A DNA stretch of 64,000 bases from contig NZ_CP010515.1 in NCBI RefSeq assembly GCF_003431325.1, positions 248,001 through 312,000 of the forward strand, given 5' to 3'. The notes below the pieces were generated by a model. It saw nothing but the letters and a program-made list of their open reading frames with translations. It did not search any database and was not told the origin of the DNA. This document shows, piece by piece, positions 5,755 to 63,455 of this stretch. The first letter of the stretch is position 1; each line of letters starts with the position of its first letter. Source of the stretch: Acidilobus sp. 7A. GTDB taxonomy: Archaea > Thermoproteota > Thermoprotei_A > Sulfolobales > Acidilobaceae. A program made the position numbers and the translations under genes.

Positions 5755-5827
5755 GCTGCCGGCCTGTAACGCCTCTGCAGGCTAATCACAGCCTCTGACC
5801 CCTTTTGCACTACCAGGCAGACCAAGT

Positions 5828-5996
5828 TGACCTCCTCCCCGCCCTGAGGGGTGAGGCCTTCGGCTGCAAAGCTCGTTTGCTTTGCTGTCAAGTGCAAAGG
5901 AGGGCGCCACCGTGAAGTCGATGAGCAGCCGTGAGGCAAAGGGGCGCCCGGTGAGGCCCCGCGTCCCGAGGGAAGGCGGGCCCCCGCAGGCAACAT
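5828..5996 (-). mobile_element. tnpB C-terminal remnant with IS200/IS605 right end
   Basis: The minus strand keeps the last part of a tnpB-like frame, ending EGLTPQGGEEV, and the element end GCCCTCAGGGC followed by GGGAGGAGGTCA at 5828. The Pro/Gly/Arg-rich tail and the GGEEV ending match the translated ends of TnpB genes when the right-end hairpin is read through. No catalytic domain remains. It fills most of the 279-base gap between the MBL gene and the sirtuin. Confidence 0.5.
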
Positions 5997-12468: not shown

Positions 12469-14373
12469 GTGGTGGAGAGGGAGCCCGGCCCTGAGTCCGG
12501 GCAAGGGAGCCCTGACGGTCAGTCCGGCGGGGGTAGCCGCGGCTTTGTATCGCGGTCTCCCCCAGGTCATCTTGTAGAGTCCGACCTAAAGCTGAGCAGG
12601 TCGCTCGGCTTCTGGCACTACGTCGGCTTAAACATTGGTGCCATCATAGGAGCCGGCTGGCTCCTGGCACCTCTGGGCGCAGCCGCCTTCGCTGGTCCGC
12701 TCTCCATAGCCTCCTGGCTCGTAGCAGCCGTCCTGGTGATCTTCATGGCGCTTGCCTACGCCTACCTCGCGGGCTTAGCGCCCAGGACAGGCGGCGTGGT
12801 CAGGTACCCCCAGATGGCCCACGGAGACCTGGCTGGCTTCGTCACCGGCGTCCTCTACCTGCTCTCCATATCATCACTTATGCCGGCCGAGGCCATAGCT
12901 GTCGTCAGCTACGCAAGCTACTACGTTCCTGGCCTCGTGACCAGGGCAACTGTGCTGGGCCAGCCCGTCACTGTGGTCACATGGAAGGGCATGCTGCTGG
13001 CCCTGGCCATAGTTGCGCTCGTGTTCCTCATCAACTACTTCGGAGTTAAGTTAGTTGGTAATGTGAGCCTGGGCCTCATGATCTGGAAGGTGATAGTGCC
13101 GCTCGTTGCAATCGTCGCACTGTTCGCCCTCGCCTTCAACCCCCATAACCTAACCCTCCAGGGCCCGACCCAGGCGTCCTCCATGGGCCTCACCGGGGCG
13201 GCCGCCGTCCTGATGGCCATACCGCTCGCGGGCATAGCCTACGCGATGCTGGGCTTCAGGCAGGCCGTCGACTACGGCGGCGAGGGCAGGAGCTCCTCCA
13301 GGGACGTCCCACTGGCAGTGATAACCTCAGTCCTCATAGCTTCAATAATCTTCATCCTGCTCCAGGTGGCCTTCATAGGCGGCCTCAGGTGGTCTGCCAT
13401 AACCGTCGGCTCGCCTAGCGACGCAGCCCCGCTAACCCCTGGCAACTGGAGCGGGCTGGCGACCTCCAACATAGCCTCAGCCCCGCTGGCCAGCGAGCTA
13501 GCCCTAGCTGGGCTCGGGGCCCTGAGCGTGCTGATGATAATAGACGCCTGGGTGTCGCCTCTGGGCAACTCCATAATACAGATGGGCAACCTGGCCAGGA
13601 TAGTTTATGGCATAGCCGCAAACGGCCACCTGCCCTCCAGGCTGACCTCGCTCAACAGGTACGCCGTGCCGGGCCTGGGCCTCCTAGTGGCCCTAGCCCT
13701 AGGGCTCGCCTTCATGGTCCCGCTGCCCAGCTGGTACGCCATAGGTGGCTACGCCGTGCTCACCACGCTGATGACCTACGTGACGGGCGGCACGGCGCTC
13801 GGGGCCTTCTCAAGGAGAGGCCGCGCGGTCTTCAAGGTAGTTGGTGCCCTGGGGGCCATGGCGGCGGCGCTGCTGGCCTACTGGGCCGGCATGACCCTCA
13901 TGATACCCGTCTTCATGACGTTCATCTCAGGCGTAGCGGCCTACCTAGTGATAAGGGGCGTTACCGGCCAGAGGAGCCTGCTGAGCATCGGGATCCCCTA
14001 CGCGGCCGTCATCGCCTTCGTTGACTACATGCTGGCTGTTAACGTCTTCTACCCCATCAGCTCAGGGTTAACGACCTCAGCCCATGAGGTGACCGCCCTG
14101 GTAACCATCTCGCTGGCGCTCTCGGCCGCCGAGACCGCTGTAGCGCTGGTCTCCTATGCCTTGGTCGGCGGGCCTGAGGAAAGGAAGGCCGTGAGGTCTG
14201 GCGCCTGGTTCGTGACCCTGGCGTTCCTGATATTCCTGATAGACGTGATTGGCCCGTACGGGCTGTCCTCAGTCTACGGGGGCAGCCCGCTCCTGCCCTT
14301 CCCCTACGACCTGGTCACCGTGGCGGCTGGCGCTGTGACCCTTTACGTGGTGGCGGTCCTCACGGCGCCTTAG
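12469..14373 (+). CDS. APC-superfamily amino acid permease
   Basis: Integral membrane transporter, 634 residues, with a 40-residue Gly/Ser/Pro-rich cytosolic N-terminus and then 12 or more hydrophobic helices. The first helix carries NIGAIIGAGWLLAP, the unwound substrate-binding stretch of APC permeases. The C-terminus has extra helices compared with 450-500-residue relatives. GTG 12469 (or GTG 12472) lies about 45 bases downstream of a TATA box, GTTTAAATAG at 12421-12430. It stands alone; the amino acid substrate is unknown. Confidence 0.85.
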   Translation: MVEREPGPESGQGSPDGQSGGGSRGFVSRSPPGHLVESDLKLSRSLGFWHYVGLNIGAIIGAGWLLAPLGAAAFAGPLSIASWLVAAVLVIFMALAYAYLAGLAPRTGGVVRYPQMAHGDLAGFVTGVLYLLSISSLMPAEAIAVVSYASYYVPGLVTRATVLGQPVTVVTWKGMLLALAIVALVFLINYFGVKLVGNVSLGLMIWKVIVPLVAIVALFALAFNPHNLTLQGPTQASSMGLTGAAAVLMAIPLAGIAYAMLGFRQAVDYGGEGRSSSRDVPLAVITSVLIASIIFILLQVAFIGGLRWSAITVGSPSDAAPLTPGNWSGLATSNIASAPLASELALAGLGALSVLMIIDAWVSPLGNSIIQMGNLARIVYGIAANGHLPSRLTSLNRYAVPGLGLLVALALGLAFMVPLPSWYAIGGYAVLTTLMTYVTGGTALGAFSRRGRAVFKVVGALGAMAAALLAYWAGMTLMIPVFMTFISGVAAYLVIRGVTGQRSLLSIGIPYAAVIAFVDYMLAVNVFYPISSGLTTSAHEVTALVTISLALSAAETAVALVSYALVGGPEERKAVRSGAWFVTLAFLIFLIDVIGPYGLSSVYGGSPLLPFPYDLVTVAAGAVTLYVVAVLTAP

Positions 14374-17043: not shown

Positions 17044-17086
17044 GATCGCTGCCCACTGAGCTATACCTTGGGCTAACTTTTAAAGC

Positions 17087-17120
17087 TGGCCCCCTCCCTG
17101 CCCTGAAGGGTTAAGGCTTT
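17087..17120 (-). mobile_element. Degenerate IS200/IS605 right-end scar
   Basis: Minus strand CCTTAACCCTTCAGGGCAGGGAGGGGGCCAGC resembles the shared right end (CCCTTCAGGGC hairpin, GGGAGG) with several mismatches. It fills the space between the CbiX-like stop and the lysS start. Confidence 0.35.
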
Positions 17121-17702
17121 TCAAATGTTAAGGCCTCTGGCCACCTCCTTAAGCCACTCTGAGATCTCCAGCGCCGCCACCTCGGCGAGGGTACCCAGGG
17201 CCCTCGAGCCGCAGGCCTTGGCCGCCTCCTCGGCCTCAGAGGCTATCCTGCCTGGCAGGAGGGCCAGCGGGGCTATGCAGTCTGCGCACCCATCCATTAC
17301 CACGTTAAGCCCCTGGAGGGTCAGCACAGCTGCTATCCTGCCCACGTCGTCCAGCTGCTCCTCGAGGTGCCTCTTGGCGGGCCAGAAGTAGAGCCTGACG
17401 CTCGTGCACCCGGCCTCCCGGGCTGCCCTTGCAATGGCTGCTGCCGTGAGCTCCGTCGGTATGTGACCGACCCACCTGGCGCCCGCGGAGGCGGCCGCAG
17501 CCATGATCTCCCTGGCGTGGCCCCCACCCATTGGCATCAGTAAGGCCACGGCGTCGCCCGAGCCCAGCCTGAGGGAGCCCACCTCTGATACCTTAACTAG
17601 AGCCGCGCCCCTAAAGTGGGCCGCCAGCTCCTTAAGCTTAGAGTCGTCCCCTCCCGGGTCGTGGTAAACTAGGTACAGCAAAAGGACCTCTCCCGCGGCC
17701 AT
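17121..17702 (-). CDS. CbiX-like protein, possible sirohydrochlorin chelatase
   Basis: About 193 residues from ATG 17702. The layout is CbiX-like: an early beta strand (LLLYLVYHDPGG), a middle GGGHAREI that could be the metal-handling His loop, an alternating alpha/beta pattern, and IAPLALLPGRI near the end. Sirohydrochlorin ferro/cobaltochelatases of this family insert metal in siroheme or cobalamin synthesis, and the gene is divergent from hemA, which fits. But the classic GHGSR is not present, so the assignment is tentative; HemD is an alternative. ATG 17702 is chosen from TATA (AGTATATACCG at 17730-17740); a longer open frame would start upstream of transcription. Confidence 0.45.
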   Translation of the reverse strand: MAAGEVLLLYLVYHDPGGDDSKLKELAAHFRGAALVKVSEVGSLRLGSGDAVALLMPMGGGHAREIMAAAASAGARWVGHIPTELTAAAIARAAREAGCTSVRLYFWPAKRHLEEQLDDVGRIAAVLTLQGLNVVMDGCADCIAPLALLPGRIASEAEEAAKACGSRALGTLAEVAALEISEWLKEVARGLNI

Positions 17703-28775: not shown

Positions 28776-28799
28776 GCTCTAGTAACTGCGTAGCGGCTC

Positions 28800-28833
28800 T
28801 GACCTCCTCCCCGCCCTGAGGGGTGAGGCTTGC
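28800..28833 (-). mobile_element. IS200/IS605-type right-end scar
   Basis: Minus strand: CACCCCTCAGGGC followed by GGGGAGGAGGTCA. Closely matches the scar at 5828, including CCTCACCCCTCAGGGCGGGG. The rest of the 28776-29092 gap is featureless apart from this scar; no gene is seen. Confidence 0.6.
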
Positions 28834-29092
28834 CTTTCATTTTGTCATGCTCTAATGCAAACAGCTTAGTGTTGGCCCTAGGACTCGCGATGTCACCTCA
28901 ACTGTACTACGCGCTACGTCTCTCACGCCTTTAAGTGAGGCCGCCGCCCACCCTGCAGCATCAATGTATTCCTATGTAGTATGACGCCAAACTGCACGCT
29001 CGGAATTAGCGTTCCTGCGCTCAAGAGCATAAACTCTTAAGAGTGCAGGAAGTTACAACTGTGCCACGGCCTGAGAGGGCCGGTGACCTGAG

Positions 29093-33566: not shown

Positions 33567-33670
33567 TGACTGCACCTGGGCTCTCTTAAGCAGTTACTCT
33601 AAGTAGACTTAAAGCCTATGCAACCCTTGATGTCTATAACGGGAAGGCTTGACAAAAAGAACGACAAGCC

Positions 33671-33995
33671 TCGCCCCTTCCAGGGGCGGGGTAAGGCATA
33701 AAGCCTCTGAGCACTTAAAGTTGCGTGGAACAGATGGTGTCCCCGCAAGGGGATGCCCCAACAGGGGCCCCACATATCCCCGAGTCCCTAAGATCCGTGA
33801 GCCGAGGGCAACTCACGGTGAGGGATAGGGGTAATGGGCTGAAGGCCCAGCCCGCGGTCTACCGCTGGACGAGCGGAGCGGGGTGGGCGCTTACCGCGCC
33901 CGCCAGCCATGATACGATGAAGGTGAAGGCGGTAAGCCGCAAACCAGTGAGCCGCCCTAAGGGAGCCCTCGCCCTTTAGGGCGGGGAGGAGGTCA
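33671..33995 (+). mobile_element. Non-autonomous IS200/IS605-like element (MITE A)
   Basis: 325 bases with hairpin ends. Left: CGCCCCTTCCAGGGGCG then GGGTAAGGCATAAA. Right: GCCCTTTAGGGC (33971-33982) then GGGGAGGAGGTCA. The interior is GC-rich with several hairpins (GGGCTGAAGGCCC; GGTGGGCGCTTACCGC) and one weak frame of tnpB-tail style. Same ends as MITE B at 8097-8232, which is an internal deletion. It occupies the 33576-34025 gap. May produce a TnpB-guide-like RNA; no protein is likely. Confidence 0.75.
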
Positions 33996-34025
33996 GCCTA
34001 AACTGCAGGGGACCCTTAGAACTGC

Positions 34026-60737: not shown

Positions 60738-60929
60738 ATTAAAATCAATGCCGACCTGAACGCGGCAAGAAACATAGCGAAGAAAGCAGGCTACAAAACA
60801 CCGATATCGAGGAGGATACTGAGCTATACAGTCACTGCTAACGGCGTGAAACCGTTAACCCCCAAAGAGGGGGTAACGTTCGAGACCCACGGTAGAAACC
60901 CCGCCCTTAAGGGCGGGGAGGGGTCATAG
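60738..60929 (+). pseudogene. tnpB C-terminal fragment with intact right end
   Basis: Encodes INADLNAARNIAKKAG, the last RuvC motif of TnpB (Asp then Asn), continuing to LSYTVTANGVKP and a tail read through the element end (NPALKGGEGS, TAG 60929). The hairpin GCCCTTAAGGGC (60903-60914) and GGGGAGGGGTCA follow. The first ~350 residues of TnpB are missing, so the protein is dead, but the region that forms the 3' part of the guide RNA is whole. Confidence 0.8.
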
Positions 60930-60989: not shown

Positions 60990-62012
60990 ATGAGGTGCGA
61001 GGACCTAGGGGCTGCCCTGCTTGACTCCGTAAAGGAGTTGGTTGCCAGCGAGGGGTGTGACTGCGTGCTCTTCAGCGGCGGCATAGACACCACATTCGTC
61101 ACCCTGGCCGCCGTCGAGGGCGGCCTAAGGCCTAAGCTCATATCAGTGCTCTTCCCCGGCTCGGCTGACGAGGAGTACGTAGACTACGTGTCAAGGGAGC
61201 TTGGCCTGGAGCTAATCAAGGTCAGGCCAACCGCCGAGGAGGCCCTTGCATGCGCTGACGAGGCGCTAAGGTCAATGGTGACGATAGACCCCATAGAGGT
61301 CATCTCAGGTGCCGCAGTCTGCCTGGGCCTCAGGAAGGCCAAGGAGCTTGGCTGCAGGTGCGTTGCGACAGGCGACGGAGGGGATGAGCTCTTCATAGGC
61401 TACGACTTCCTCTTTCCTGAAGGCCGCGATGAGCTTGAGAGGTGGCTAAGCAAGGTCACGCGTGGGGCTTTCTTCAACTCAGTTCCCATATCGGGCCGCC
61501 TGGGGGTCAAGGTGCTGCTACCCCTCTACAGCGACAAGGCCAAGGAGCTCTCCTGGGAGGCCCTGAGGCTCGGCTGCGACCTGAGGGAGCTCAACGGGGT
61601 CAAGTACGGCAAGTACCTAATGAGGAGGGTCATAGAGGCCAGGGGGCTCAGCAAGGTGGCCTGGAGGCCCAAGGACCCCATAACAAGGGGAAGCGGCTCA
61701 CAGTCGCTGCTGGACGTAATGAGCAGCCTCACCTCTAACGATGAAATAATTGAACTCTCCAGGGAGACGGGCGTGCTGTTGCCTTCAAGGCCCCACGCCT
61801 ACCTACTTAAGAGGAGGCTGTCCCTTGAACTTCAGATGCCGCAGAGGGCGACCTCCAACAGCTGCCCCATATGTGGCTCAGAGATGAGGGACGGCTTCTG
61901 CAGGTTCTGCGGGGCCTACATAGATAGGTCGGACTCGCTCTCTGTATACTCCGACGACGCTGCCAGCCTCACGGGCGCCTCAAGGCTGCTTGGAAACCTC
62001 AAGAAGTCTTGA
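60990..62012 (+). CDS. Asparagine-synthase-like PP-loop protein with zinc ribbon
   Basis: 340 residues. ATP-pyrophosphatase core with PP-loop VLFSGGIDTTF (about 26-36), VATGDGGDELFIGYDFLF as in asparagine synthetase, and a C-terminal zinc ribbon CPICGSEMRDGFCRFCG. It lacks the N-terminal glutaminase domain, so it must use free ammonia or act on another amide or RNA substrate. ATG 60990. Position after the cobamide genes may be chance. Confidence 0.75.
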   Translation: MRCEDLGAALLDSVKELVASEGCDCVLFSGGIDTTFVTLAAVEGGLRPKLISVLFPGSADEEYVDYVSRELGLELIKVRPTAEEALACADEALRSMVTIDPIEVISGAAVCLGLRKAKELGCRCVATGDGGDELFIGYDFLFPEGRDELERWLSKVTRGAFFNSVPISGRLGVKVLLPLYSDKAKELSWEALRLGCDLRELNGVKYGKYLMRRVIEARGLSKVAWRPKDPITRGSGSQSLLDVMSSLTSNDEIIELSRETGVLLPSRPHAYLLKRRLSLELQMPQRATSNSCPICGSEMRDGFCRFCGAYIDRSDSLSVYSDDAASLTGASRLLGNLKKS

Positions 62013-62687
62013 AAGCGTGAACCTAGCATTCCCAAGCATCCAGTGATCGTTGTTAAAAAAGACGTAGGCCCTGCTCGGCCTGAGCGCTACTATCTCGTTC
62101 ACGTCGCTGAGGAGCTCCTCCTCGCTGTACTCATAGGCGTACCACGAGGCCCTTCCGTGCATCCTGAGGTAGACGACGCCGTTGGTGCTCCTTATAAATA
62201 CCCCCATGGGCGAGTCAACAGACACGAAGGTCACGCCAAGCCTTCTCAGGGCCTCAACGGCATCGTCCGAGAACCATGAGGGGTGCCTGAACTCCAGCGC
62301 CGCCCTCTGTCCAAGGCCTGACCTCATCACAAATGTCTCAACCCTGGACAGGTTCTCCTCAGTGTAGGCGAAGTTGGGCGGCATCTGAAAGAGGTAGAAG
62401 TCTATGAGATTGTTCATTGGCTCGAAGAGCCTCCTGAACTTGGCCCACGTGTCCGCTGCCTTATCATTAAGCCTGTGAACATGTGTTATCAGCCTGTTCA
62501 CCTTAATTGACCACCTGAGACCTGAGCCCCTCCTGGACCACGAGGTCACCTGCGAGGGGAAGGGGAACCTGTAGAACGAGGCGTTCAGCTCCACGGCGTT
62601 TAGCCCGCTGTTCTCAGCGTACCAGCCGAGGCTACCATCCTCGTTCCAGTCGTAGAGCCAGCCTGATGTACCGACGTAGACCTCCAA
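61980..62687 (-). CDS. DUF72-family protein
   Basis: TIM-barrel-like DUF72 protein, about 236 residues: VYVGTSGWLYDWNEDGS, NAVELNASFYRFP, EFRHPSWF and VYLRMHGRASWY. Function unknown; related to endonuclease IV-like folds. TTG 62687 is chosen because similarity begins there; further upstream the frame runs through an IS scar. That scar's GGGGAGGAGGTC ends four bases before the TTG and forms the ribosome binding site. Tail overlaps the PP-loop gene by 33 bases. Confidence 0.85.
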   Translation of the reverse strand: MEVYVGTSGWLYDWNEDGSLGWYAENSGLNAVELNASFYRFPFPSQVTSWSRRGSGLRWSIKVNRLITHVHRLNDKAADTWAKFRRLFEPMNNLIDFYLFQMPPNFAYTEENLSRVETFVMRSGLGQRAALEFRHPSWFSDDAVEALRRLGVTFVSVDSPMGVFIRSTNGVVYLRMHGRASWYAYEYSEEELLSDVNEIVALRPSRAYVFFNNDHWMLGNARFTLSRLLEVSKQP

Positions 62688-62752
62688 CCGACCTCCTCCC
62701 CGCCCTAAAGGGCGGGCTTTCAGCTGTAAGGCCCCTAGCTGTAGGGGGCCAG
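62688..62752 (-). mobile_element. IS200/IS605-type right-end scar before DUF72
   Basis: Minus strand: GCCCTTTAGGGC hairpin then GGGGAGGAGGTCGG, running straight into the DUF72 start. A second hairpin, GCCCCTA/TAGGGGGC (62731-62749), lies beyond it. No coding remains. Confidence 0.6.
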
Positions 62753-62765
62753 CGAGCTTATAGGA

Positions 62766-63455
62766 ATGGCGAAACTCCCTAATATTGGTGGACACGCCGC
62801 GGAGGGCGAGAAGGGCTCTGACATTGAGGCGAAGCTGACGCAGCTGAGCCCCCTGTCGCTCTACATACTCTTCCACCTTAAGAGGGCCAACGCTGACTAC
62901 GCGGGCTCGATATCTAAGGTTATCGAGGTGCCAATAGAGAAGGTTGTTGACGAGCTTGACAGGCTTGAGTCGACAGGCCTGATACAGAGGCGCGTCGGGG
63001 GCTCATCAATAAAGCGCAGTGAGGCTAGATTTAAGCTCTCCGACGAGGTACATAAGCATCACGTCTACTATGAGCTTAGCAGGGAGGGCGAGGCACTGGT
63101 CAGGGAGCTCGTGAGGGACCCCCGGAAGCTCTCAGAGTACTTTGACAGACTTGCAGGCCACAGGAACGCCCTCAAGCTGCTCCTCTTCCTCTTTGAGGCC
63201 AAGAACGAGCACGCCGGGACCCTGGCCAAGGTGGTTAATGACACGCCCTGCAACACCGTTGACCTCCTCGACAGGCTCGAGTCCCTGGGCCTTGTGGTTA
63301 AGGTCAAGGAGAAGGTCATAAAGGCCTCCCACAGGAGGGCCAAGCCGAAGCCCGAGACCAGGACGCACCACGTCTACTACAGGGTCAGCGAGATGACTAA
63401 GATGCTAATAAGGTACAGCGACCTCAGGAGAGCCTCACAGGGGGCCTACGCTTGA
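62766..63455 (+). CDS. Tandem winged-helix protein (DUF2250-like)
   Basis: 229 residues in two similar halves, each a wHTH: LYILFHLKRANADYAGSISK...LDRLESTGLIQRRV and LLLFLFEAKNEHAGTLAKV...LDRLESLGLVVKV, each followed by a segment with HHVYY. Fits DUF2250-type archaeal regulators that bind DNA; target unknown. ATG 62766 lies very close to a TATA-like GCTTATAGG, so the true start may be downstream. It overlaps ribC tail-to-tail by 21 bases. Confidence 0.7.
   Translation: MAKLPNIGGHAAEGEKGSDIEAKLTQLSPLSLYILFHLKRANADYAGSISKVIEVPIEKVVDELDRLESTGLIQRRVGGSSIKRSEARFKLSDEVHKHHVYYELSREGEALVRELVRDPRKLSEYFDRLAGHRNALKLLLFLFEAKNEHAGTLAKVVNDTPCNTVDLLDRLESLGLVVKVKEKVIKASHRRAKPKPETRTHHVYYRVSEMTKMLIRYSDLRRASQGAYA

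Follow-up and report, generated by a model that had tools for sequence, protein, structure and literature searches.

Terminal-only forms of IS605-type elements have been described in Haloquadratum walsbyi, where IS605-type elements and PATEs of 1500 or 390 bp were reduced to 52 bp by deletion between palindromes lying as direct repeats (PMC3119063). Dyall-Smith and colleagues considered that the short form may itself move (PMC3119063). The element IS608 inserts 3' of the tetranucleotide TTAC, carries the left guide sequence AAAG before its left hairpin and has TCAA as right cleavage site (PMC5934647). The locus described here lies in a window of 64,000 nt (the whole stretch of DNA analysed), corresponding to positions 248001-312000 of a complete genome of 1,539,049 bp (G000), and consists of a single hairpin with short flanks located directly before a DUF72 gene.

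On the minus strand, positions 62729-62688 read TTACAGCTGAAAGCCCGCCCTTTAGGGCGGGGAGGAGGTCGG and are followed immediately by the DUF72 start codon TTG (62687-62685). This stretch of 42 nt, TTAC included, has the layout TTAC-AGCTGAAAG-CCCGCCC-TTTA-GGGCGGG-GAGGAGGTCGG (see Table 1). Its hairpin has one T fewer than the family consensus and scored 61.9 bits (E 2.8e-15) against a covariance model which had been built with the DUF72 copy included, and its terminus is TCGG where the family has TCAG. The sequence GGGGAGGAGGTC was found at 62701-62690 (minus strand), beside the hairpin of the repeat family and immediately before the TTG, as the earlier note had reported; the distance of four bases given there is that from GGAGG to the TTG, with only two bases (62689-62688) lying between the end of GGGGAGGAGGTC and the start codon.

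Table 1. Features at the DUF72 locus (window coordinates)
Feature	Position	Strand	Remarks
DUF72 gene	61980..62687	-	TTG start, 235 aa; PF01904, E 3.6e-48
Right-end suffix GAGGAGGTCGG (family: GAGGAGGTCAG)	62688..62698	-	Ends one base before start codon; right boundary placed by analogy with sister empty site
Candidate Shine-Dalgarno site GGAGGAGGT	62691..62699	-	GAGGT complementary to ACCTC of 16S 3' end
Hairpin CCCGCCC-TTTA-GGGCGGG	62699..62716	-	7-bp perfect stem, read directly from the sequence
Left-end prefix AGCTGAAAG	62717..62725	-	Includes AAAG (IS608 left guide sequence); same layout as left ends of full TnpB copies and of the tnpA+tnpB element in G034
TTAC tetranucleotide	62726..62729	-	Marks the left boundary; stays in the flank as target/left cleavage site; conserved in family alignment
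Best TATA-like site CCTATAAG	62757..62764	-	Centre ~73 nt before TTG; highest crude TATA score (5.58) over 110 nt
DUF2250 gene	62766..63455	+	Divergent neighbour of DUF72, synteny anchor; PF10007, E 1.1e-48

The start of DUF72 is well placed, because the protein read from this TTG matches PF01904 and because, in 68 ortholog upstream stretches, most starts coincide with this residue or lie only a few codons away from it. The syntenic ortholog in the nearest syntenic genome (G003), which also has the DUF2250 neighbour sequence upstream, is 71% identical, with an alignment that begins at TTG 62687, and this similarity also supports the start. One in-frame TGA was flagged by the search in this ortholog.

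A 26-nt pattern representing the hairpin and its end gave 48 matches in the 1.54 Mb genome and none for the reversed control, so that the repeat family is far above chance. The copies fall into three classes: some form the right end of TnpB elements, others the right end of a 347-bp element that lacks tnpB, and others again are short solo units. In full TnpB copies the left end has the form TTAC-AACTGAAAGCC-hairpin-GGGGATGG and the right end the form ...CCC-hairpin-GGAGGAGGTCAG, with near-identical hairpins at the two ends. In all 15 aligned solo units, the DUF72 unit included, a left prefix is joined to a right suffix around one hairpin, and the arrangement TTAC-N5-AAAG-hairpin is shared by left ends and solo units; the point of switching from left to right varies among the solo units. 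Since these units start like a left end and finish like a right end, the DUF72 scar is a terminal-only IS605-type relic comprising left prefix, one hairpin and right suffix, from which a core of about 1.5 kb has been lost. The transposon origin proposed in the earlier note is thus upheld, but the 42 nt are a fusion of left and right ends and not a bare right end of an IS. Fusions of the same kind occur in a second family, whose left end has TGAC.

The terminal-only identity is further based on full TnpB copies, a tnpA-bearing relative and a clean empty site elsewhere. Fifteen PF07282 (tnpB) matches were found in G000, several of them directly before right ends, and intact tnpB frames exist, while no Y1 transposase (PF01797) was detected in this genome. 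A Y1 transposase does follow this left end in G034, and a further reading frame starting after the transposase is read here as tnpB. For a sister solo unit (G000 12639-12682) an empty site is present in G003, with flanks that align and with TTAC kept; relative to this site (TTAC followed by CTCGTG...), the unit has an extra 40 nt (AACTG...GGTCAG). This is insertion 3' to a fixed tetranucleotide without target duplication, as in IS200/IS605 elements, and the tetranucleotide is the same as that of IS608 (PMC5934647). By analogy with this sister site, the insert before DUF72 would span 62725-62688, and native sequence would resume with the T of the TTG. Aligned units end in TCAG, and a right guide sequence for this putative cleavage site was not identified among them. 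The unit at 806834 was also considered for an empty-site comparison and was discarded as unusable because a larger insert distinguishes the two regions. The identity of the relic, its chimeric make-up, its position before DUF72 and, by analogy with the sister copy, its boundaries are established.

Elsewhere in the window, further units with one hairpin, or hairpin ends, lie at 2837-2880, 5827-5869, 17086-17130 and 28799-28847 (minus strand) and at 60899-60926 (plus strand). An Rfam search of the window returned only a tRNA. The 347-bp element, with a TGAC left end, is located at 33650-33996 (plus strand) with a partial copy at 8251-8098 (minus strand), and shares its last ~55 nt with the TnpB elements. 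Besides shorter copies, six more match it over at least 330 of its 347 nt with 83-89% identity, and its predicted RNA fold has a z of -5.8; it may be a non-autonomous element with an RNA that resembles omegaRNA. One TnpB element contains a perfect 86-bp tandem duplication close to its 3' end (G000:C1 8910-9081). Genome G030 (35% G+C in the stretches fetched) holds approximately 30 single-hairpin units of 41-44 nt with few tnpB remnants and no Y1 transposase detected. They may be what remains of numerous IS copies, or they may represent a tiny element that is moved in trans; their large number is compatible both with formation in place and with spread as short units. In a different genus, a single-hairpin unit (L104 1126-1168, minus strand) lies ~35 nt upstream of a DUF72 ortholog in the opposite orientation, its GGAGGT facing away from the gene.

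The bases of the relic before the TTG are GGAGGAGGTCGG, with GGAGGAGG as the GGAGG-bearing motif in the presumed leader, and the suffix of the right end is inherently GGAGGAGGTC. The 3' end of the 16S rRNA in G000 reads GGATCACCTCTC, and its ACCTC can pair with the GAGGT that lies 3 nt before the TTG; a GAGG is also present at 7 nt. The usual continuation of the 16S 3' end is CACCTCCT; in G000, near G000:C1 329921, it continues GGATCACCTCTCGACGG, and only one copy was found. From its position and this complementarity, the motif of the relic is plausibly predicted to be a Shine-Dalgarno site serving DUF72. To this extent the suggestion that the scar supplies the ribosome binding site of the gene is plausible, but the creation of a new site is unproven. 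The genes of this host do use Shine-Dalgarno motifs: 16 of the 55 in the window have one at -16 to -4, whereas a control stretch gave 3 of 55.

The region of the best TATA-like site matches the TATA region of G003 at 13 of 15 positions (p 0.025), in promoter DNA too diverged across the genus for firm alignment. Transcription starting ~26 nt downstream of CCTATAAG would place the whole relic in the mRNA leader.

The upstream regions of relatives bear on whether a site of this kind was already there. In G003, which has no hairpin, GTGGAGGCTCAGGGC lies directly before the TTG, with GGAGG before the same TTG at a different spacing than the motif of the relic, while in G001 there is no SD-like motif before DUF72. 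The proposal that relatives with the same motif but no hairpin would make the site native therefore has a divided outcome: G003 has a GGAGG at another distance and G001 has none. Because G003 has GGAGG without the hairpin, a site may not have been created by the relic but exchanged, an earlier SD-like GGAGG having been displaced. Alignment of the G003 upstream DNA, too diverged for a firm alignment, gave p=0.13 for the emptied allele and p=0.03 for the occupied allele. From a GGGCC motif to the TTG there are 42 nt in both G000 and G003, which is not predicted by simple insertion. An ancient, decayed relic was considered for the 42 nt of G003 and was rejected, its resemblance to the unit not being beyond chance (p 0.10-0.18).

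It is probable, taking the explanation as a whole, that the DUF72 scar is a terminal-only relic whose suffix serves this gene as an SD-like site. An IS200/IS605-family element would have entered on the 3' side of TTAC, at the very start of DUF72, in a pre-insertion allele expected to read ...GGGGCCTTAC joined directly to TTGGAGGTC. Deletion between its two hairpins, which are almost identical, would then have removed its core, unless the element arrived already short. The suffix GGAGGAGGTC would have left bases before the TTG ending in an SD-like site, probably for this one gene, with transcription presumably starting upstream of the motif and ribosomes presumably using it.

The more general suggestion that downstream genes could be turned on by such insertions finds no support. 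Of 59 single-hairpin units (37 in G000 and 22 in G030), the one before DUF72 is alone in being followed within 0-8 nt by a start on its own strand. By chance 1.0 such unit is expected, given a probability of 0.017 for an intergenic position and strand picked at random in the window, with the G000 figure used for G030 too and with simple codon-usage gene calls. Several units lie just past stop codons or between convergent genes. Nor is the GGAGGT present in every copy, as had been stated, being intact in 24 of the 37 single-hairpin units of G000. The placement before DUF72 looks like one chance event rather than a gene-switching mechanism.

Placement at chance level is also what would be expected of a neutral passenger, with the mRNA starting too near the TTG or with initiation independent of the motif, and DUF72 translated as in its SD-less relatives. 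This reading is a real possibility, if on balance a doubtful one. It is favoured by the presence of a Shine-Dalgarno motif before only 17 of 68 distinct ortholog upstream stretches and by the low proportion of window genes with such a motif. However, the leader predicted from the best TATA-like site would include the relic, and even a TATA box at TTACAG (-40) would give a start near -14, upstream of most of the motif.

In a modelled 46-nt presumed leader, with an assumed 5' end and energies extrapolated to 80 °C, GGAGG is unpaired, which favours its use as a Shine-Dalgarno site, and the UUG start is paired with the left prefix of the relic; the start codon is in a pair at 37 °C and for the most part also with the 80 °C parameters, with a fold z of -2.3 against shuffles. 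It is unlikely that the entire initiation region of DUF72 is a co-opted relic, its GC hairpin, exposed SD and paired start setting output under selection. In this model the pairing of the start with the left prefix could lower translation, which counts against the main explanation, and it is quite unlikely that the relic reduces DUF72 expression in this way, CAGCTGA of the prefix pairing with UCGGUUG and hiding the start beside a strong hairpin: the paired start, the open GGAGG and the z value argue for it, and the assumed 5' end and extrapolated energies against it. The nuclease TnpB is directed by a guide RNA that derives from the right end of the TnpB element, and intact tnpB frames are present, but it is highly improbable that the hairpin is a functional RNA (an omegaRNA end) with downstream bases guiding TnpB to DUF72 DNA, because the unit is without all that full copies carry upstream of the last hairpin and so retains no scaffold.

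If the motif is used, the locus would be a testable archaeal case of a transposon end turned ribosome binding site; a limited literature search found nothing relevant on Shine-Dalgarno sites supplied by an IS. The wider value lies in cataloguing these IS605 relics, with one hairpin and 42-44 nt each, which occur by the dozen per genome in some members of the order and of which a limited literature search found no description in this archaeal order.

The units, like REP/REPIN sequences, are short hairpins that occur dispersed and have a relationship to Y1 transposases. However, the aligned units lack GTAG before the hairpin, G000 has no PF01797 match, and they are clearly derived from IS605 ends. 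With IS608 they share insertion at TTAC, AAAG before the left hairpin and a putative right cleavage site of the form TCAN, but this site is TCAG, or TCGG at DUF72, instead of TCAA, and no Y1 transposase was detected in G000. Like the terminal-only PATEs of Haloquadratum, they are non-coding, fused IS605-type ends around one palindrome with the core lost, and differ in lineage and sequence, in the unit length of 42-44 nt and in having one copy which abuts a start codon. The units are of the same kind as the Haloquadratum terminal-only forms, in another archaeal lineage.
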